From the NCBI RefSeq assembly GCF_900167415.1, contig NZ_FUWU01000008.1, positions 1 through 64,000 of the forward strand: DNA of 64,000 nt, in the 5' to 3' direction. Each line of letters begins with the position of its first letter. Within the stretch, counting starts at the first letter, position 1. This document shows, in pieces, positions 50,554 through 63,008 of the stretch. The position numbers were made by a program, and so were the translations under genes. A model generated the notes under the pieces. The model made no database searches. It saw only the letters and a list, made by a program, of their open reading frames with translations, and was not told the origin of the DNA. The DNA comes from Fibrobacter intestinalis. GTDB lineage: Bacteria > Fibrobacterota > Fibrobacteria > Fibrobacterales > Fibrobacteraceae.

Positions 50554-52167
50554 TTACAAATCCTTGATGACCATAATCCCGCTTCTTCCGATTTTTGGAA
50601 ACGGTTTCATTCCCTCGCCGCCCTTGCCGCTATCAAGCACATCGAGCAGTTCGCCTTCCGAAGAATACAAATGCAATTCCCACGGACCTGCCGGCGTATT
50701 GAAATACCCGGAATTTTTCTGCACGTTGCGTTGGAAACTCCTGTTCAGACGATCCGTGACGCTGCGGGCCTGCACGAGGGAAACGTCGGCAAGAGTCCAG
50801 CCGATGTCGCTTCCGCCCATGTCAAAAATCAACACGGCGTTTTCGTCCGTCGGCTCCTTCATCGTGAACTTCCAGCTGAAATCCTGCCAGCTCGTCGAAA
50901 GATCCAAAAAACGACCGTTCGCGTAAGGGACGTATTCTTTGGTCGCCCGCTTGATGTCCACATTCAATGTGCGCGGCCTGTCGGCCTTGGCCCGCATACT
51001 GAAAACGTAAGTGACGCCGTTGCGCAAAGAAAAGCTCTGCCGAAACTGCAAATTCCAGGATTCTTTGCCCGAATCCACAATGCCGAAATGGACGACGCCG
51101 TTTTTAACATTCGCATTCGCCTTGCCTCCCCAGAAATCCGCAGTCCATCCGTCCAAACCGTCCTTGAAATCGCCATTGGCAATGAGGTTGCGGCCTCTGT
51201 CCGAAACCCCGGTCGAAAAATCCGCATTTTGAATAAACGCCGGAATGACACTCGTATTCTGGATGCCCAAAGGACTGTCCACGCAGACTTCCCTGCCCCA
51301 GCCGACGAGGGTGTTGAAAGAACCGTGCGTCGTCATGTCCATCTCGGGACTGTCGAAATTTCCCGGTCCCCAACTCCACGACAACCAGCCGATTTCCAAA
51401 CGTTCCGCTTCCGCCATGATGAATTTATACGGAATTTCCCGAGCACCATTCACGGCAACAGGCGCAAATTCTCCGATAATCAACGGCAGATTGCGGGACA
51501 CCGATTCTTCCAAAACTCCCGTGATGCGTTCCCGGACCGTCGCATAGCCCGTCTTTTCCGGATTGTGCCGTTCCGTGGGCCACCACATGTGGATGTCAAA
51601 AATCAAATTGTGTTCCGGATCGGACGACAAAAGTCGCGCACCCTGTTCCAGAATATTTTTAGAATTCTGTCCCCAGTTGTCCGCATCGACAATCAATGGA
51701 ACCCGAATCCCCGCAGCCCGCATCCGCGTTACCGCCGAAGTGTAAGCTTCGTAAAATTCTTCGCCGCTTTCCTCTTCGCCGCCCACTTCGTTTCCGATAT
51801 TGACCAGCAGATATTCCTGATGGTCCTGTATCAGCTGGACGGCATCTTCCCGCGTCCAGAAGTTTACCAATTCCGGCAAGCGTGTCCACTGCCCCGTCGC
51901 ATCGTGGAGTTCCACAATCGGAATCATGCTATTGACAATGCTTTCATCGACAATGTGGTACAAATCCGAAATCCGCCCGTGCATATTCCATACGATACGG
52001 ACGCAGTTCGCACCCGTCTTGGCGATTTCCGGAATGGACTTTCCTTCGCGATCCGTCCAAATGAACATGTGGTTCACGCCGCGAAGTATGACTTTTTCAT
52101 TGTCCTTGGTATAAAGGAAGCGCCCCTGAACAAAAAAGCCCGGTTTTGAATTATTGACAGATTCCAT
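50554..52167 (-). CDS. GH5 enzyme with a CBM4_9-like domain, no signal peptide
   Basis: 537 aa. The GH5 catalytic domain covers residues about 10-310: LRGVNHMFIW (28-37), GANCVRIVW (52-60), acid/base Glu127 in VNIGNEVGG, FDIHMWWP (190-197) and nucleophile Glu233 in LIIGEFAPV. A jelly-roll carbohydrate-binding domain follows (about 325-465, NLIANGDFKDGLDGW, ending ADVSLVQA), then a short C-terminal unit (WELHLYSSEGELL...GIMVIKDL). The fold suits beta-mannanase or endoglucanase activity. ATG 52167 is preferred to TTG 52182 because AAAGG is 8 bases upstream. No signal peptide is present with either start, which is odd for an enzyme with a binding domain. It could leave by another route, or the true N-terminus could be missing. 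Confidence 0.88.
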   Translation of the reverse strand: MESVNNSKPGFFVQGRFLYTKDNEKVILRGVNHMFIWTDREGKSIPEIAKTGANCVRIVWNMHGRISDLYHIVDESIVNSMIPIVELHDATGQWTRLPELVNFWTREDAVQLIQDHQEYLLVNIGNEVGGEEESGEEFYEAYTSAVTRMRAAGIRVPLIVDADNWGQNSKNILEQGARLLSSDPEHNLIFDIHMWWPTERHNPEKTGYATVRERITGVLEESVSRNLPLIIGEFAPVAVNGAREIPYKFIMAEAERLEIGWLSWSWGPGNFDSPEMDMTTHGSFNTLVGWGREVCVDSPLGIQNTSVIPAFIQNADFSTGVSDRGRNLIANGDFKDGLDGWTADFWGGKANANVKNGVVHFGIVDSGKESWNLQFRQSFSLRNGVTYVFSMRAKADRPRTLNVDIKRATKEYVPYANGRFLDLSTSWQDFSWKFTMKEPTDENAVLIFDMGGSDIGWTLADVSLVQARSVTDRLNRSFQRNVQKNSGYFNTPAGPWELHLYSSEGELLDVLDSGKGGEGMKPFPKIGRSGIMVIKDL

Positions 52168-52334
52168 CTGAACACCTTTCAAAAAAAATTGATTCCTTGC
52201 TCAAAATAAGAAAAAAAAGTCGGAACGTTCAAAGGAATTTCACGTCGGCTTTAAAAATCGAAGCGCGGACGAACATGTCGCCCGCAATCCGGGATTTTCC
52301 TATTCGCAAACGGGAAAATCGACCGTCGTTTGAA

Positions 52335-52856: not shown

Positions 52857-54230
52857 TCACTTACCAGAAAGGAACCAAGTGATGGGATTCACAACTGTAT
52901 AACGAATATTACCCAATTTTTTCTTGCCTCGGGCATCTACAAAACCCGTCACCAAATGAACGTGCGGTCCCGTCGTATGTCCCGTCGTTCCCACAGTGGC
53001 CACCGGATCTCCCCGCATGACGTTCTGCCCGTCCAAATAGAGCAGCTGATTGCAGTGCATAAAAAGAATCACCCGATTTTTATCGGCGATGCCAATAACG
53101 ACTCCCCCGCGTTCGTCTTGAAATGTCCAAGCCTTGCCGCTGAAAGGTGCGAGGATTCTCGCTCCGGGACGACTGGCGACATCCCACGCCGGATGCTTGC
53201 GATTTTTAGACGTCGCTTTCGGATAATAGGCTTCCGTCACGTAGGCAATCGAATCGGCGATAAGCCCCGTGAAATAATTCCAGGCGGGAGCGATCAAATC
53301 GTATTCGGGATTGCGCAAACTGTCCGGTATCGAGAAACGGACGGAAACTCCCGCGGGCGGAATGCGCAGAGAATTCTTTCTCCAGGAATCGGCGGGGAAT
53401 CCATTTTTCTCCAGAGTTTCCGCGATGTAGGAATCCAAAATTTCAGCGTTCGTCACCAAGGCGGAAAAACGCCCGACCGCATAACGGGCAATTCTTTCCA
53501 GTGGCTCCTTCCCGTCAAAAACGTAATCAAAATAGGGAGCTTCGGCGTAAACAAGCATTTCGGACTTGATATTCCTGGAAAGCGGAAGCTGCTCCGCCCA
53601 TTCGGAAGAGATAAAAAAAGGAACTGCGGCGGCCAAAACGCAAAAAAGAGGGAAAAAACGGCGAAAGAATCGCGGCCATCCATCCAGGACATTTTCACGG
53701 AGAATGCGAATTTTCAAAAACGAAAGGAACGTCGCCGCAGCCAAAGACGCATCGGACTCAACGTCCTCTACAGAAACAAAGCCTCTTTCGACGGAGTTCC
53801 TAACCGCAGAATGCAAGGCAGGAAAACGTTTTTTGGGTGGCAGCGGCGCACACCACCAGAAAAACTGGGGAGGAAAAGGGGCAAAGGAATTTAGAGCGGA
53901 TAAAAGTTCGTCGGAGAGCGGCTCCCGGCCTTGAGAAAAAACAAGAAGAATACGCATGGAAAAAAGCAACGAGGCAATTTCGCCTTCAAATCCTTTCCGG
54001 AATACGACAAAGATATTTTTCGCTTCGTTCTTCTGCTGCCGAACTCGACATTTTTCCAAAAACGCTTTTGGAGAGCCTTCTAGCGGCGAATATTCGACAA
54101 AAAGAAAAGGCGCAGTCCCGCAAAAGGATTGCGCAAAATTCTCTAGCCGCTCGCAGCGAAAGTTTTTCGGAACGATGACGCCCACGAGCGATCCTTGGGC
54201 GATCAACGAATCGAGCACCTTGCGCTGCAT
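52857..54230 (-). CDS. M23-family metallopeptidase with a transmembrane segment
   Basis: 457 aa. The N-terminal half (1-190) is an unrecognised, probably cytoplasmic region. One transmembrane helix lies near 200-218 (FFPLFCVLAAAVPFFIS). The C-terminal periplasmic LytM/M23 domain has HPAWDVA (about 345, His and Asp zinc ligands), DERGGVVIGI, VMRGDPVATVGTTGHTTGPHVHL (His-x-His ligand near 420) and a proline-rich end. All catalytic residues are present, so it could cleave peptidoglycan cross-links or act in envelope remodelling. The upstream gene (54241-54678) ends 10 bases before its start, so the two form an operon. The fusion of a cytoplasmic region to a peptidase is unusual. Confidence 0.85.
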   Translation of the reverse strand: MQRKVLDSLIAQGSLVGVIVPKNFRCERLENFAQSFCGTAPFLFVEYSPLEGSPKAFLEKCRVRQQKNEAKNIFVVFRKGFEGEIASLLFSMRILLVFSQGREPLSDELLSALNSFAPFPPQFFWWCAPLPPKKRFPALHSAVRNSVERGFVSVEDVESDASLAAATFLSFLKIRILRENVLDGWPRFFRRFFPLFCVLAAAVPFFISSEWAEQLPLSRNIKSEMLVYAEAPYFDYVFDGKEPLERIARYAVGRFSALVTNAEILDSYIAETLEKNGFPADSWRKNSLRIPPAGVSVRFSIPDSLRNPEYDLIAPAWNYFTGLIADSIAYVTEAYYPKATSKNRKHPAWDVASRPGARILAPFSGKAWTFQDERGGVVIGIADKNRVILFMHCNQLLYLDGQNVMRGDPVATVGTTGHTTGPHVHLVTGFVDARGKKKLGNIRYTVVNPITWFLSGK

Positions 54231-54240
54231 GGCACTACGC

Positions 54241-54678
54241 TTAAAGGCTTTCTACCGTTTTCTTGACGAACATCTTGCAAGCACCGCGCGGATAAGTGTG
54301 GATCTGCGGCGGCGCAGCGACAAATCTGTCGATGGCCGTATAGAGCTCTTCTGAAGAGGCGTTCGGGGCGATAATCATTTCCTGACCACGCAAAGCACTG
54401 CGGCCTTTGAGCGGTTCTACACGACGAGAGCGGCTGACAACGGCAAGCGGAACCATTTCCAAAACGGGAAGCAGCCCGAAATAACGGAAAAGGCTAAAAT
54501 TCTTTTGCCACGTAAAACGTTCAACAAGAAGACCGAAAGTATTTTCCGGAACGCCCTTGGCCTGCAAAAACGCTTCGCCGGACATGGTTACCAATTCATG
54601 ATTGGTCGGAAAATTGTTTACAAAAGCGGCATTGTCGCCTTTCAGGTAAATATCATCGCAAAGGAAAACAAATTTCAT
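54241..54678 (-). CDS. Unknown protein upstream of the M23 peptidase
   Basis: A 145-aa soluble protein with no recognised family. It starts as a small alpha/beta fold (MKFVFLCDDIYLKGDNAAFV) and continues with helices and strands (VPLAVVSRSRRVEPLKGR), ending with a basic ACKMFVKKTVESL. There is no signal peptide. Operon partner of the peptidase gene, 10 bases apart; a role in the same process is possible but unproven. Confidence 0.65.
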   Translation of the reverse strand: MKFVFLCDDIYLKGDNAAFVNNFPTNHELVTMSGEAFLQAKGVPENTFGLLVERFTWQKNFSLFRYFGLLPVLEMVPLAVVSRSRRVEPLKGRSALRGQEMIIAPNASSEELYTAIDRFVAAPPQIHTYPRGACKMFVKKTVESL

Positions 54679-55113: not shown

Positions 55114-58100
55114 ATGATTCGAAAGAAATCAGTGTCCCTATTCTTGGCCGCAGGTCTGCTGTCCTCGGTCGTTTTTGCACAAGATGAAGCCCAACCGGCG
55201 GCGGCAGAAAACAATCCGCCGTCCCTAAACGGAATTCCGGGCGAATCCATCCAGGAAGGCGGAAAGTTCGCGCCCATCAAGCTTGACGACTTTGTCAGCG
55301 ATCCTGAAGATCCTCCTGCTAAATTACGTTGGAACATCTCTGGAAACAAGCAACTCCAAGTAAAAGAATCCAATCATGTGGTCTCGATCACAGTGCCCGA
55401 CCAATATTGGAACGGTTCAGAAGATTTGACATTTACTGTCACAGACACCAAGGGCGCGTCAAGTTCCGAAACCGTGACGTTCTCGGTGGAATCCGTCAAT
55501 AACCCGCCTGAAGTTTCCAAAATCCCCGATCAGACCATCGACGAAGGCAAGACCTTCACTCCCATCAAGCTTGACGATTATGTAAAAGACCCCGACCATC
55601 CGAAAGACCAGATTACCTGGGAATACGAGATGACGCAGACCGCCAAAGACCAGGCGGAGGGCGAACTGACCGTCGATATCACCAAAGATCGCATCGCCAA
55701 CATCGTCGTTCCGGACGCCCATTGGTACGGTGCCTACAAGATTACCTTTATTGCGACCGATGCCGAATACGCTTCGGCAAAAACCTCGGCGAACTTTACC
55801 GTTCGCCCGATAAACGATCCGCCCATCGTCCAGAAAGCTCCAGACCAGACCATCAACGAGAAGGAGCAGTTCGAAGCCATCAATCTTTCCGACTTGGTCA
55901 GCGATGTCGATGACGACGTGTCGAAAATCAAATGGACCGTCTCCGGCGGAAAAGACCTCAAGGTCAAAATCGACAAATACAACGTAGCGGAAGTCATCAT
56001 TCCCAATGAAAACTGGAATGGACCGACCGAAACGTTTACCTTTACGGCAACCGACCCGCACGGCGCAAGCGCAAGCTTTAAAACCGCTTTCACGGTAAAA
56101 TCCGTCAATGACGCTCCGGAATTTGTGGACCAGATTCCCGACCAGACCATTGCGGAAAAGCAGCAGTTCAAGCCGATCGAATTGGAAAAATACATCAAGG
56201 ATCCGGATCACAAGTTCGAACAATTGAAATGGGAATTTTCCGGCAACAAGGATTTGAAAGTCCAGCTAAACGGCAAGACCGCTAAAATTCTGATTCCAAA
56301 TGCTTTCTGGAACGGTTCGGAATCCATCACGTTCAAGGCGACCGACCCCGAAGGGGCCAGTGCCGAAACCCAGGCGACCTTTACTGTCGAATCCGTCAAC
56401 GACGTGCCAAAATTTGTCAAACAGATTCCCGCGCAGACCATCGACGAAAAGAAGCAGTTCGCCGCCATCCATCTGGATGAATTTGTCAAGGACGACGACC
56501 ATAAAAACGCCGAGCTTTCCTGGGAATTCGAAGTCAAGTCCGTCGGCAAGGAACCGGAATCCGGTCCGCTGAACATCAATATCGACGACAAGCACGTCGC
56601 TAAAATCGAAATTCCCGACACCTACTGGAATGGTTCCGCCATCGCGACATTCAAAGTGACCGACCCCGAAGGTGCCGAAGCCAAGCAGGATGTCAAGCTT
56701 TCCGTCCGTTCCATCAATGATTTGCCGGTGTTTAAAAAGATTCCCGACCAGACCATTGAAGAAAAAGCGGAATTTGACGGATTCTCCCTGGACGATTTCC
56801 TTTCTGATCCGGATCACGATATTTCCCAGCTGAAAATTTCCGTTTCTGGAAACAAGAGCCTGAAAGTCAATATCGACAACAACCGCAATGTCACCATTAA
56901 ACAGCCGACCGAAATTTGGAACGGCACGGAAAACATCACCTTTACGGCAACCGATCCCGAAAACGGCAAAGCTTCGACGACGGTCAAATTCTCCGTGACT
57001 TCTGTAAACGATCCGCCGGTCATGAAGGACATTCCGAGCCAGACCATTCAAGAAAAGGAACAGTTCAAGCCGATTGAACTCGACAAGTTTGTAAGCGATC
57101 TCGACCACCCGAACGACAAGCTCAAATGGACGATTTCCGGCAACAAGGATATTCAGGTCAAGCTGGACAACAACCGCAAAGCGACTCTCGTTCTGCCGAA
57201 TAAATACTGGAACGGCTCCGAAGCCATCACATTCAAAGTGACCGACCCCGAAGGGGCTTCTGACGAACGCACGGTTCAATTCACTGTCGAATCGGTGAAT
57301 GACGCGCCGGAATTTGTCAAGGACATCCCGGACCAGAAAATCCAGGAAAAAGCGCAGTTCAAGCCCATCAATTTGGGAGAACTCATCAAGGATCCGGATC
57401 ACAAACTGACCGACCTGACTCTGAACATCGACGTGAAAGCCGCGCCGGGTTCGCCGAAAGGCACGCAAGCGGAATTGCAAGTGAACGTGGACGCCAAAAT
57501 GGTCGCCACCATCGCGATTCCGAACAAATACTGGAATGGTTCCAATGTGGTGACGTTCAGCGTTACCGACCCGGAAGGAGCCAAGGCAATCAAGTCCGCC
57601 ACCTTTACCGTAGAATCCATTAACGATGCTCCGGTTCTCAAGGAAATCAAGTCGCAGACCATCGCCGAAAAAGCCCAGTTTGCGCCCATCAACCTCGCCG
57701 AACTCACCGACGACCCGGATCACGCTTTTGAAAAACTCAAATGGAGCATCACGGGCAACAAAGACTTGAACGTCAATATCAATAAGGCCGGCGAAGCGAC
57801 CGTCGCCATTCCGAATCAGCTCTGGAACGGTTCTGAAAAAATCACGTTCACCGTTACCGACCCGGAAGGAGCCAGCGCCAAGCAGACCGCCGTCTTTACG
57901 GTCACCTCCGTCAACGATCCGCCGGTCATGAAGGACATTCCGAGCCAGACCATCAAGGAAAAACAGGAATTTAAGACGATAGACCTCAACAGCTATGTTT
58001 CGGATCTTGACCATCCGAACGAAAAGCTCAAGTGGAATATCACGGGCAACAAGGAACTCAAATTCAAGGTGGATACCAAGCATCAGCTTTCCATCATCAT

Positions 58101-61100
58101 CCCGAATAAATACTGGCACGGTTCCGAAACGTTCAACATCGAAGTTTCCGACCCGGAAGGAGCCAAGGATTCCCGCAAGGTCACGTTCACGGTCGAATCG
58201 GTAAACGACGCACCGGAATTCACCAAAAAGATCAACAACCAGTCCATCGACGAAAAGAAAGCCTTCGCTCCGATCAAACTGTTTGAAATCGTCAAGGACC
58301 CGGATCACAAGACTTCGGAACTGACCTGGAACTTTGACGTGAAAGCGGCGCCGGGTTCGCCGAAGGGATACAAGCCCGGACTCAAGGTGAATATGGATCC
58401 CAAGACCGGAACCGCCACAGTCGTCGCTCCCGACGTCTATTGGAACGGCTCCGATGAAATCACGTTCACCGCAACCGACCCGGAAGGAGCCAAAGTCTCC
58501 CAAAAGGCTCTCTTCACCATCAAGTCCATCAACGACAAGCCTGTATTCAAAAAGATTAACGACCAGATTATCATGGAAAAGGAAGAGTTCAAGGATATCA
58601 ATCTTGCCGAACTCGTTTCTGACCCCGACGATGCCTTTAAGACTCTCAAGTGGACCATCACGGGCAACAAGGATCTGAAGGTCAGCATTTCCAAGGATGG
58701 AGTCGCTTCCATCAAGACGCCGAACAAACTCTGGAACGGCACGGAAAAAGTGACCTTCCAAGTGAGCGACCCGCAAGGCGCTACGGAAAAGCAGACAGTC
58801 CAGTTCACGGCAAAATCCGTGAACGATCCACCGGTCATGAAAGACATCCCGAACCAGACCATCAAGGAAAAACAGGAATTTAAACCCATCGACCTCAACA
58901 ACTACGTTTCGGATCTCGATCATCCGATGAACAAACTCAAGTGGACGATCACCGGGAACAAATTCCTGAAGTTCAAGATTTCTCCGGACCACAAACTCTC
59001 CGCCGAAGTGCCGAACAAGTTCTGGAACGGTACCGAAACTATCACGCTGACGGCGACGGACCCGGAAGGCGCCAAGGATTCCCGCAGCGTCACCTTTGAA
59101 GTGATTTCTGTAAATGACCCGCCGGTATTTGCCCGCGAAATCAAGAGCCAGACCATCGACGAAAAGAAGCAATTCGCCGCTATCAATTTGGATGAGCTGG
59201 TTCAGGATCCCGACCACAAGAAGACGGATCTCCAGTGGACCGCCGTCGTCAAGGACGCTTCCGCCAAAGCTCCTGCGCCGAAAAAAGGGAAGAAGGGCAA
59301 AGCCGCTCCGCAAGCAAGCGAAGAATCTTCGAAGAATGGGCTGACCGTGGAAATCGACAACAATCACGTCGCCCGCATCATGATTCCGAATACTTACTGG
59401 AACGGTTCGGCAAATATCACGTTTACCGTTTCCGACCCGGAAGGTGCCAAGGCTTCGTCCAGCGCGCTCTTTACCGTGCGCTCGATTAACGACCTGCCGA
59501 TGATTTCGGCCAACGCCCCGAAGGGTGAAACCATCCGTGAAGGCGGCAAATTCAAGACCATCGATTTGTCCTCCCTCGCCACGGACGCAGACCATCCGGC
59601 CAAGCAGCTCAAGTGGAGCTTCAATGGCAACCGCCAGCTGCAAGTCGCTTTGAACAAGGACAACACCGTCCAAATCAAGACGCCGAATGCACAATGGCAT
59701 GGTAAAGAAAGCATCACATTTACCGTCACCGATCCGGAAGGCGGCAAGGCCAGCCACAAGATGGACTTCGTCGTCACCGAAGTGAACGATCCGCCAGTCC
59801 TTTCCAAGATTCCGAGCCAGAAAATCAAGGAAAAGGAATTATTCAAGCAAATTGCACTCGACGAATTCGTGAAGGACCCGGACAATAAACCGTCCGAAAT
59901 GAAGTGGACCGTTTCCGGCAATAAATACCTGAAAGCGGAAATCACATCTGCCAGAAAGCTCGTCGTTTCGGCTCCGAACAAATACTTCTGGTGCAAGCCC
60001 GACACTCTGACATTGACTGTAAAAGATCCGCAAGGAGCTTCGGCGACAACAGCCATCGTCTATGAAATCGTTTCGGTAAACGACGCGCCCGTGATGAAGG
60101 ACATCCCGTCCCAGTCCATCAAGGAAAAGGCCCAGTTCAAAACCATTCCTCTCGATAGCTATGTTCATGATGCCGACCATCGCAGCAACCAGCTGAAATG
60201 GACAGCCGTCGTGAAGAAAGCCGACGCAGCACCCGCTCCCGCTCCCAAAAAGAAAGCTTCGAGAGGCAAAAAAGGCAAGAAGGGCAAGGCGCAGAAGGAA
60301 GAGCCGACTGCTGAAGAAAAGAAGGACGAAAACGATTTGACCGTAACGATTGACGACAAGCACGTCGCCCATCTGAATATCCCCAACGCGTTCTGGAATG
60401 GCAAACGGACAATCACATTTACCGTCACCGACCCGGAAGGAGCCAAGGATTCCAAGACGGCGACCTTCGAAGTCGTTTCAGTAAACGACCCGCCCACTCT
60501 TGCCAAAATTCCGAACCAGAAGATTAAGGAAAAGGAACATTTCGCTCCGATCGACCTGCTCCCGCTTGTCAAGGATCCGGACCATCCGACCTCGGCGTTG
60601 AAATTTGAAGTGTCGCAGCCGCGCAGCCTCAAGGCTTCGATCAATGCGAAAAAGCAACTCGTCGTTTCGACTCCGGACAAATACTGGAACGGTTCCGAAA
60701 AAATCACTTTGACGGTGACCGACCCCGAAGGCGGAAGAGCATCTCAGCAAGTGCAGTTTGATGTGACTCCGGTAAACGACGCACCTGTCGTCAAGGCGAT
60801 TCCGAACCAGAAAATCAAGGAAAAGGAACGCTTTGAACCCATCGATCTCTCCAAGTTCGTGAACGACCCGGACAACCGCCCCAATGAAATCAAGTGGAGC
60901 GTCTCGAGCAATAAGGAACTGCAAGTCAAAATCACCGGTGCCCGCGTACAAATCGCCGTCCCGAATGACCACTGGAACGGCTCGGAAAAGCTGACCTTTA
61001 CAGCGACCGACCCGGCTGGGGCTTCGGCAAGCGCAACGGCGACGTTCACGGCGACCCCGGTGAACGACCCGCCCCACTTCAACAAGCTTCCGCCGCAGAC

Positions 61101-62403
61101 CATCAAGGAAAAGGAAGAGTTCAAGCCGATTGATCTGGCGAAACTCGTCGTGGACCCGGACAACAAGGCTTCCGAAATGCGCTGGACGCTCGACGACGGC
61201 GAACCCGCACAAAAGGACAAACGCGGTCGCATGGGCAAAGCCAAACGCCCGACAGTCAAGCACCCGCTTTCCTATGACCTCTCCGACGCAGGCGTTCTCA
61301 CCGTAAATATTCCGAACGAATACTGGAACGGCAAGGACAAAATCAAGGTCAATGCCTACGACCCGGCCGGCGAAAAAGCTTCGCTTGATATCGAATTCAT
61401 CGTCAAGCCAGTAAACGACCCGCCAGTTCTTTCCAAAATCCCGGACATGGTGACTAATGAAGGAACCAAGTTCAAGCCCATCAAGCTCGACCAATTCGTC
61501 AAGGATCCGGACAACAAACCGCACGAACTCCACTGGACCGCATCTGGCAACCGTCACCTCGAAGTGATGATAACCGGTGGCCGCGAAGCGGTTGTCCGCC
61601 CGAATCGTGCCGACTGGTACGGCAAGGAAACGGTGACCTTTATCGTGAAGGATCCGGCAGGCGCAACGGCCAAAACCGCTGTAAACTTTGAAGTGAAGCA
61701 CGTCAATGCGGTTCCGGAAATCCGTCCGATTCGCGACGTGACGATGAAGGAAGACGCGAACAATGGCGTTCTCGCCGTCCTCAAGCTCGACCAATTCGTC
61801 CGCGACCGCGACAACAGCTTCAATGAACTCAAGTGGGATATTTCCGGCAACAAGAAGCTGGTCATCGACCATGACAAGGCCCGCAACATCGTGACCATCA
61901 AACAGCCCTACGAAAACTGGAACGGTCCTACAGAAACGATCACCTTCAAAGTGACCGACCCGGAAGGCGCCAGTGCCAAGACTTCCGCCAAGTTTACCGT
62001 AACCGCGGTGAATGACGCACCGGTAGCCCTCTCCAAGTCCTACCAGACCAAGGAAGGGGAAAAACTGGTCGTCAATGCAAAAGAAGGCCTGCTCAACGGA
62101 GCCTACGACCCAGATGGAAAACTCGACGCGACGGTCTCCCTCGTTCGTCGCCCGCAGAACGGAAAAGTGGAACTCAACGCCAAAGACGGCTCCTTCACTT
62201 ACACTCCGAACAAGGGCTTCTACGGTCTTGACGAATTCGGATTCAAACTGACCGATCGCGAAGGCGCGTCCTCCAAAGTGGAAACCGCGGAAATCAACGT
62301 GAACTTCAAAATGAAGGACATTCGCGGCGGAGAACCGGCAGCAGCTCCCAAGCCCGCAGCCAACGACAACGATAAAAAGAAGAACAAGCGTCGCCGCCGT
62401 TAA
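55114..62403 (+). CDS. 2429-aa secreted protein with 23 cadherin/Ig-like tandem repeats
   Basis: A signal peptide (1-23, ending VVFAQ) is followed by 22 repeats of roughly 92-125 aa and one terminal repeat of the Tandem-95/VCBS type (KEGEKLVVNAKEGLLN...GFYGLDEFGFKLTDREG). Each repeat has the pattern VNDPPVMKDIPSQTI, then a Glu-Lys segment, KLKWTISGNK, a YWNGSE loop and TDPEGA; Asp-rich loops suggest calcium binding. Every third repeat carries an extra insert, giving a higher-order period of about 900-980 bp. Inserts in later repeats are Lys/Ala/Pro-rich. The C-terminus is polybasic (KKKNKRRRR) and shows no sorting domain or anchor. GGAG lies about 9 bases before ATG 55114. It is likely a surface or envelope adhesin; the ligand is unknown. 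A strong terminator follows. Confidence 0.88.
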   Translation: MIRKKSVSLFLAAGLLSSVVFAQDEAQPAAAENNPPSLNGIPGESIQEGGKFAPIKLDDFVSDPEDPPAKLRWNISGNKQLQVKESNHVVSITVPDQYWNGSEDLTFTVTDTKGASSSETVTFSVESVNNPPEVSKIPDQTIDEGKTFTPIKLDDYVKDPDHPKDQITWEYEMTQTAKDQAEGELTVDITKDRIANIVVPDAHWYGAYKITFIATDAEYASAKTSANFTVRPINDPPIVQKAPDQTINEKEQFEAINLSDLVSDVDDDVSKIKWTVSGGKDLKVKIDKYNVAEVIIPNENWNGPTETFTFTATDPHGASASFKTAFTVKSVNDAPEFVDQIPDQTIAEKQQFKPIELEKYIKDPDHKFEQLKWEFSGNKDLKVQLNGKTAKILIPNAFWNGSESITFKATDPEGASAETQATFTVESVNDVPKFVKQIPAQTIDEKKQFAAIHLDEFVKDDDHKNAELSWEFEVKSVGKEPESGPLNINIDDKHVAKIEIPDTYWNGSAIATFKVTDPEGAEAKQDVKLSVRSINDLPVFKKIPDQTIEEKAEFDGFSLDDFLSDPDHDISQLKISVSGNKSLKVNIDNNRNVTIKQPTEIWNGTENITFTATDPENGKASTTVKFSVTSVNDPPVMKDIPSQTIQEKEQFKPIELDKFVSDLDHPNDKLKWTISGNKDIQVKLDNNRKATLVLPNKYWNGSEAITFKVTDPEGASDERTVQFTVESVNDAPEFVKDIPDQKIQEKAQFKPINLGELIKDPDHKLTDLTLNIDVKAAPGSPKGTQAELQVNVDAKMVATIAIPNKYWNGSNVVTFSVTDPEGAKAIKSATFTVESINDAPVLKEIKSQTIAEKAQFAPINLAELTDDPDHAFEKLKWSITGNKDLNVNINKAGEATVAIPNQLWNGSEKITFTVTDPEGASAKQTAVFTVTSVNDPPVMKDIPSQTIKEKQEFKTIDLNSYVSDLDHPNEKLKWNITGNKELKFKVDTKHQLSIIIPNKYWHGSETFNIEVSDPEGAKDSRKVTFTVESVNDAPEFTKKINNQSIDEKKAFAPIKLFEIVKDPDHKTSELTWNFDVKAAPGSPKGYKPGLKVNMDPKTGTATVVAPDVYWNGSDEITFTATDPEGAKVSQKALFTIKSINDKPVFKKINDQIIMEKEEFKDINLAELVSDPDDAFKTLKWTITGNKDLKVSISKDGVASIKTPNKLWNGTEKVTFQVSDPQGATEKQTVQFTAKSVNDPPVMKDIPNQTIKEKQEFKPIDLNNYVSDLDHPMNKLKWTITGNKFLKFKISPDHKLSAEVPNKFWNGTETITLTATDPEGAKDSRSVTFEVISVNDPPVFAREIKSQTIDEKKQFAAINLDELVQDPDHKKTDLQWTAVVKDASAKAPAPKKGKKGKAAPQASEESSKNGLTVEIDNNHVARIMIPNTYWNGSANITFTVSDPEGAKASSSALFTVRSINDLPMISANAPKGETIREGGKFKTIDLSSLATDADHPAKQLKWSFNGNRQLQVALNKDNTVQIKTPNAQWHGKESITFTVTDPEGGKASHKMDFVVTEVNDPPVLSKIPSQKIKEKELFKQIALDEFVKDPDNKPSEMKWTVSGNKYLKAEITSARKLVVSAPNKYFWCKPDTLTLTVKDPQGASATTAIVYEIVSVNDAPVMKDIPSQSIKEKAQFKTIPLDSYVHDADHRSNQLKWTAVVKKADAAPAPAPKKKASRGKKGKKGKAQKEEPTAEEKKDENDLTVTIDDKHVAHLNIPNAFWNGKRTITFTVTDPEGAKDSKTATFEVVSVNDPPTLAKIPNQKIKEKEHFAPIDLLPLVKDPDHPTSALKFEVSQPRSLKASINAKKQLVVSTPDKYWNGSEKITLTVTDPEGGRASQQVQFDVTPVNDAPVVKAIPNQKIKEKERFEPIDLSKFVNDPDNRPNEIKWSVSSNKELQVKITGARVQIAVPNDHWNGSEKLTFTATDPAGASASATATFTATPVNDPPHFNKLPPQTIKEKEEFKPIDLAKLVVDPDNKASEMRWTLDDGEPAQKDKRGRMGKAKRPTVKHPLSYDLSDAGVLTVNIPNEYWNGKDKIKVNAYDPAGEKASLDIEFIVKPVNDPPVLSKIPDMVTNEGTKFKPIKLDQFVKDPDNKPHELHWTASGNRHLEVMITGGREAVVRPNRADWYGKETVTFIVKDPAGATAKTAVNFEVKHVNAVPEIRPIRDVTMKEDANNGVLAVLKLDQFVRDRDNSFNELKWDISGNKKLVIDHDKARNIVTIKQPYENWNGPTETITFKVTDPEGASAKTSAKFTVTAVNDAPVALSKSYQTKEGEKLVVNAKEGLLNGAYDPDGKLDATVSLVRRPQNGKVELNAKDGSFTYTPNKGFYGLDEFGFKLTDREGASSKVETAEINVNFKMKDIRGGEPAAAPKPAANDNDKKKNKRRRR

Positions 62404-62415
62404 GCCGGAACTTTT

Positions 62416-62457
62416 CAAAAAAAGCTTTCCAAGGACTTTCTTGGGGAGCTTTTTTTG
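62416..62457 (+). terminator. Rho-independent terminator after the repeat protein
   Basis: Long stem AAAAAAAGCT...CCAAG / CTTGG...AGCTTTTTTT around GACTTT, with two small internal mismatches. Confidence 0.85.
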
Positions 62458-62459
62458 TT

Positions 62460-62467
62460 TATATTTC
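62460..62467 (+). promoter_or_regulatory. TATATTTC promoter box
   Basis: TATATTTC directly after the terminator and 22 bases before ATG 62490, with GAGGA as ribosome site in between. Confidence 0.45.
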
Positions 62468-62489
62468 AAAAAAACAATGCGAGGAATCC

Positions 62490-63008
62490 ATGAAAAAACG
62501 TTTAATTTTATCTGCAATCACCCTGTCGGCTTTTCTCTTCTCCGCCTGCTCTTCGAGCAGCAGCAGCGACAAGTCCCTTGCCGAAGAATGTGAAGCAGGC
62601 GTCTCTGAAAAATGTTTGGAAAGCGCAATCTGGAATATGAACGCGTTCTACACCCCGGAAGGAGCCATCTACAGACAGCTCTCGAATCCGACAACCCTTA
62701 CCTTTGAAAAATCGGGCGAATTCGAAATCAAATACTCCACCGATCCGAAAATCCAGAATGACGGAAACGGCATTCTCGGGGCCGAAGATATCGGAACCTG
62801 GACTCTCAACGGTTCGACCCTGACTTTGAACTTCACCGTCGGAACGGAAACGCACGAACTCCCCATCACGACAAATGCGACGGTCACGACGACGCCAACG
62901 GGAGAAATCCAGCTGAATCTCGGCGGCATTTTCGTCCACAATCTCGCTTTCAGCAAAAACGAAGCCGCCTATTTAACAGAAATCTTCACCGGCATCGAAA
63001 GAAATTAA
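62490..63008 (+). CDS. Putative lipoprotein with calycin-like or beta-rich domain
   Basis: A 172-aa protein: signal peptide and lipobox FSAC (Cys20) with a Ser-rich spacer, then a cysteine pair (LAEECEAGVSEKCLE) and a beta-rich domain. The pattern LTFEKSGEFEIKYS ... GTWTLNGSTLTLNF ... IQLNLGG resembles the lipocalin-like 'META/DUF' lipoproteins that measure small strands around Gly-Thr-Trp. No precise family is claimed. GAGGA precedes ATG. A terminator follows at 63025-63060. Confidence 0.75.
   Translation: MKKRLILSAITLSAFLFSACSSSSSSDKSLAEECEAGVSEKCLESAIWNMNAFYTPEGAIYRQLSNPTTLTFEKSGEFEIKYSTDPKIQNDGNGILGAEDIGTWTLNGSTLTLNFTVGTETHELPITTNATVTTTPTGEIQLNLGGIFVHNLAFSKNEAAYLTEIFTGIERN

Follow-up and report, generated by a model that had tools for sequence, protein, structure and literature searches.

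Arrays of protein domains can grow by duplications that copy more than one domain in a single step; the unit comprises seven domains in nebulin, four in fibronectin III arrays, and five in cadherins (PMC1553488). In arrays that grew this way, the autocorrelation of the sequence peaks at a distance of several domains, and most of the duplication involves central domains (PMC1553488). The array of 23 domains described here, from Fibrobacter intestinalis, appears to be a bacterial instance of this known process. It differs from the nebulin, fibronectin III, and cadherin arrays in being bacterial, in its unit of three domains, in its great apparent age, and in its nearly constant number of repeats; the unit of three and the unusually strict conservation set it apart. 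A search of the literature on higher-order Ig repeats in bacteria and on titin super-repeats found nothing.

The individual repeats are of a described type. They have the same type and length as those of the tandem-95 (NF012211) and Big_9 (PF17963; 571 bits) models, but these models are silent on the features found in Fibrobacter: an insert in every third repeat, and a number and phase of repeats conserved across the order. In fold, the best matches are cadherin ectodomains (6vg1, 3q2w), which have similar acidic residues at the domain junctions, though only ca. 13–18% identity to the Fibrobacter repeats. Calcium binding and homophilic adhesion are cadherin traits, and in the Fibrobacter protein they are at most putative. 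The extender repeats of RTX adhesins (6xi1), which also form a bacterial tandem chain of beta-sandwiches, match the fold with 17% identity. Unlike the RTX adhesins, the Fibrobacter protein has an apparent Sec-type signal peptide, and a Pfam scan of its 2429 amino acids matched no RTX family; it does not have the combination that defines an RTX adhesin (RTX nonapeptide repeats, a type I secretion signal, and no Sec signal peptide). Nor does it have the C-terminal TIGR04183 domain of Fibrobacter type IX secretion cargo – the NCBIfam scan gave no match to this sorting domain, and the C-terminus is just a short K/R tail. No ligand or anchor domains were found in the Pfam and NCBIfam scans. In F. 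succinogenes S85, a protein with cadherin domains, FSU_2932 (317.9 kDa), has been observed on cells grown on cellulose (PMC4619616). Identity with this protein was considered and not adopted, as its mass fits neither the 23-repeat (about 256–271 kDa) nor the 20-repeat (about 236–240 kDa) members of the family described below.

Architecture of the repeat gene

The stretch analysed (the window) consists of 64,000 nucleotides of contig NZ_FUWU01000008.1. The repeat gene (55114..62403, forward strand) is an intact ORF of 2429 aa encoding a signal peptide, 23 tandem Big_9/cadherin-like (tandem-95) repeats, and a K/R-rich C-terminal tail. By eye, the N-terminus resembles a Sec-type signal peptide; the C-terminus is a run of K/R residues in a short tail. 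The first-pass annotation, made from the letters of the window and its open reading frames, had read 23 repeats, and this number was obtained both by splitting at motifs and with a profile built from the repeats. The tandem-95 model scores 643 bits over 23 stretches (curated cut-off 90 bits), and Big_9, a bacterial Ig domain, scores 570.7 bits (gathering score 23.6); Cadherin_5 is also matched by the repeats. Tandem Repeats Finder reported no repeats in this gene, because single repeats (ca. 300 bp) are too diverged and the program's longest period, 500, is shorter than the 900-bp block. The named relatives with a matching protein belong to Fibrobacter, together with Fibrobacteraceae MAGs.

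Seven of the repeats, numbered from zero, contain an insert in the alignment: r1 (55630..55653, ca. 8 aa), r4 (56533..56556, ca. 8 aa), r7 (57433..57462, ca. 10 aa), r10 (58339..58371, ca. 11 aa), r13 (59248..59328, ca. 27 aa, rich in Lys, Pro, and Ala), r16 (60211..60324, ca. 38 aa, Lys-rich), and r19 (61195..61254, ca. 20 aa, basic), all on the forward strand. The end given for r10 is that of its first 11 residues and leaves out a separate one-residue gap column. All seven positions lie within ca. 10 bp of those first annotated, and the chance of seven inserts among 23 repeats falling at an exact step of three is 2e-5.

A second proposed marker of phase fared less well. Repeats r2, r5, r8, r11, and r14 do start with INDxP in the window protein, as had been annotated, but in a neighbouring genus (45 sequences) INDxP is found at r2, 3, 5, 6, 9, 12, and 14 and is absent at r8 and r11. 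INDxP is thus a weak marker, and its use as a general marker of phase was dropped.

Opposite the repeat gene, on the reverse strand, are two long open frames, 56266–59757 (1163 aa) and 60478–62517 (679 aa). A long antisense frame is also present in one sister-family locus. These frames are probably a by-product of codon use.

Sequence similarity with a period of three repeats

Repeats were compared with each other after the insert columns had been removed. Self-alignment, which by showing no excess of similarity at a distance of three repeats would have refuted the first-pass annotation, did show such an excess: mean protein identity was 49.1% at lag 3, compared to 42.9, 44.2, 43.5, and 44.2% at lags 1, 2, 4, and 5, and mean DNA identity was 58.9%, compared to 53.8, 55.2, 54.8, and 54.7%. 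When the order of the repeats was shuffled, this excess was reached in 0 of 20,000 trials for protein and for DNA alike (p<=5e-5, a value that treats the repeats without regard to their relatedness). Excess similarity was also looked for at periods 2, 4, 5, and 7, and none was found; period 6 gave a small excess, as is expected of a multiple of 3.

The similarity is concentrated in r1–r13 (55495..59484, forward strand). Averaged over 56 orthologs, identity within this part of the array was 55.6% at lag 3, fell to 52.6 and 49.5% at lags 6 and 9, and was ca. 44–46% otherwise. The lag-3 excess appears separately in deep lineages. In r14–r22 (59485..62307, forward strand) the inserts hold the phase of three, but the lag-3 excess was not significant (p=0.26, averaged over the 56 orthologs); in the C-terminal part of the sister-family array it was borderline (p about 0.05). 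A tree of position consensuses clustered {2,5,8,11}, {1,4,7,10,13}, and {6,9,12}, while among the C-terminal consensus repeats phase is hinted at only by the pairs 14/17 and 15/18 (15/18 with 20). In a tree of single repeats, just 9 of 22 positions were monophyletic, probably because the sequences are short and some conversion has occurred, and this tree was not used as evidence.

The three-domain periodicity of insert and sequence is real, and the peak at lag 3 in r1–r13, which is not significant in r14–r22, is the pattern of a domain array grown by multi-domain units. The first-pass annotation had proposed a block of three repeated seven times. Its period of three is upheld, and so is the growth of r1–r13 by blocks, with about four blocks well supported. 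The sevenfold count does not stand as proposed: seven blocks are possible but unproven, because r14–r22 keep the phase only by the spacing of their inserts and by the weak pairs 14/17 and 15/18. With no significant lag-3 excess there, r14–r22 may have had another history.

Per pair of repeats, exact DNA tracts of at least 24 bp occur ca. 3 times as often at lag 3 as at lags 1, 2, 4, and 5. They vary between lineages, and the longest is 56 bp. This suggests small gene conversions between repeats of the same phase, and such conversion may sustain part of the lag-3 signal. In two loci, L005 and L006, r9 and r16 have 39- and 48-bp exact DNA tracts in common where the window protein differs; these look like ectopic gene conversion across phases.

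The period of three could instead have been kept mainly by structural selection or by same-phase gene conversion, with growth not chiefly by three-domain blocks. The inserts of r16 and r19, which hold the phase where lag-3 similarity has been lost, are consistent with this, as is the preference of the lineage-specific exact tracts for lag 3. Nevertheless, it is an unlikely account. Outside the insert, whole-domain similarity tracks phase throughout r1–r13, in the N-terminal half of the domain as well as in the C-terminal one, and the tree of positions groups by phase. Conversion favours partners that are already similar, so it presupposes the phase pattern that it would have to explain. The loss of r8–r10 in one clade, described below, is a change by a unit of three repeats, which also argues against maintenance alone.

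The reading that probably holds is that the gene encodes a conserved exported filament that grew by three-domain duplications before the order diversified and was then nearly frozen. The middle of the array (about r1–r13) would have grown by tandem three-domain duplication through unequal recombination. The array would then have changed little, probably through selection on its length and register, and later events would have been ectopic gene conversions on a small scale and a single loss, in register, of r8–r10.

Conservation of repeat number

The family search covered 111 genomes, with one genome per species, so that counts compare species. Matches were found in 94 of these, though some of the 94 match only another, partly similar protein and the true orthologs are fewer. 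In genus g4 (G008–G019), 0 of 12 genomes had a match, several of them being >90% complete; the gene may be missing from this genus.

Among 73 distinct full-length family proteins, 56 have 23 repeats, 17 have 20, and there is no other number, with the caveat that distinct proteins are not independent events and one genus supplies most of them. Each repeat position has a characteristic length in the 73 proteins, and all 56 distinct 23-repeat orthologs have the same count and the same insert positions. The sister family of the order contributed 2 proteins, each with 23 repeats and with its inserts, too, in r1, r4, r7, r10, r13, r16, and r19. Where residues at lag 3 are identical, their codons agree in 54% of cases, compared to a chance expectation of 47%, so the copies are close to saturated at silent sites. 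Judged from these comparisons, the amplification is ancient, because the count and insert positions are common to the family and its sister family and the silent sites are so diverged. Rapid change of repeat number between species was not seen.

Rapid variation is what is usually assumed of long repeat proteins in bacteria. In contrast, 23 domains and a three-domain phase have been kept here across two families of the order.

It is very improbable that the protein is a variable adhesin in which recombination alters the number of repeats from strain to strain, a length variation that the first-pass annotation had raised as possible. The repeats are cadherin-like, one clade has 20 of them, exact tracts reach 56 bp, and FSU_2932 of F. 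succinogenes S85, with its cadherin domains, was observed on cells grown on cellulose (PMC4619616), though its mass misfits the family. Against this, the 73 distinct proteins have only 23 or 20 repeats and the sister family has 23, the copies have diverged and their silent sites are close to saturation, and no binding domain, T9SS domain, or other anchor domain was found. A nearly constant number of repeats is unlike variable adhesins. The label "adhesin-like" given to the protein at first was drawn from domain type alone.

Absence of three repeats from one clade

The sole observed change in domain number removes exactly one period. The block r8–r10 (57619..58527, forward strand) is absent from the 20-repeat clade: by position profiles, in 17 of 17 sequences, all 340 repeats of the short proteins assign in order to positions of the long form, with r8–r10 missing. 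In a tree built from the repeat protein itself rather than from independent markers, a single clade with support 1.0 unites the 17 short proteins and is nested among 23-repeat proteins. The two most divergent members of the family have 23 repeats.

The deletion junction is near the r7/r8 and r10/r11 boundaries. The first repeat past it resembles r8 and r11 to about the same degree, so similarity does not fix the exact point. Early match boundaries had suggested a clean r10/r13 chimera; this was ruled out, the loss being that of r8–r10.

The simplest account is that one block of three repeats was lost once, in register. The absence of exactly r8–r10 from one clade shows that a block of three has also been a unit of recombination and change; one loss event is insufficient by itself to show selection for register. 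That 20 repeats is the older state and r8–r10 a later gain in other lineages is scarcely credible: r8, r9, and r10 resemble r11, r12, and r13 (62, 66, and 56% within genus), as expected of a block duplicated late, but the 20-repeat clade is nested in 23-repeat lineages, the divergent family members and the sister family have 23, and parallel gains would be needed. The 23- and 20-domain proteins offer a natural comparison for selection on domain number and register.

Predicted structure and possible role

An AlphaFold2 model of r6–r13, made with 26 orthologs (mean pLDDT 85, pTM 0.35), consists of beta-sandwich domains. In the insert-bearing repeats a lengthened beta-hairpin holds the insert; in r13, where the insert is long, the tip of the insert is disordered. 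Cadherins are the nearest solved structures to the model, with the RTX-adhesin extender repeats lower down. Certain Asn, Asp, and Glu residues are invariant and reappear in every repeat of r6–r13, and by analogy with cadherins the conserved acidic residues at the domain junctions are candidate calcium sites. Net charge rises along the chain, from a mean of about −5 to −8 per repeat in the first six to about −2 to +3 in r13–r21, the region of the longest, lysine-rich inserts. This rise, which reaches about 0 to +3 near the C-terminal end, is also seen in the orthologs and in the sister family.

If the model is taken as a guide, the acidic residues at the junctions would bind calcium, making the chain stiff, and one domain in three would present an elongated beta-hairpin, which is long and rich in lysine in the domains nearer the C-terminus. 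The regularly spaced basic loops and the basic tail could then make electrostatic contacts. The exported filament is suggested, with low to moderate confidence, to be a structural fibre of the envelope or surface with a nearly fixed length, and with similar reserve such a role is a better guess than that of an adhesin. This functional step is weak, because the Pfam and NCBIfam scans gave neither an anchor nor a ligand domain and localisation data for the protein were not found. The protein is nonetheless a candidate for a conserved envelope fibre in Fibrobacter.

Each domain would add ca. 4–4.5 nm to the chain. As a tentative extension, the protein may be a molecular ruler of fixed length – an envelope fibre of ca. 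100 nm, with basic hairpin loops spaced at the three-domain period and a length that can change only by whole periods. If so, selection allowing only whole-period change would account for there being 23 or 20 repeats and nothing between.

Genomic neighbourhood

The repeat gene is adjoined in 85 loci by a divergently transcribed conserved gene of 145 aa (54241..54678, reverse strand), which is 59–90% identical in relatives; a Pfam family was sought for it and none matched. Next to this is a gene for an M23 peptidase (52857..54230, reverse strand), and the two are conserved neighbours of the repeat gene in much of the family. The lipoprotein gene and valS downstream are nearly confined to the genus of the window. 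Also near the repeat gene is a gene for a GH5 cellulase with a CBM_4_9 domain (50554–52182, reverse strand), which is kept in three close named relatives with long flanks.
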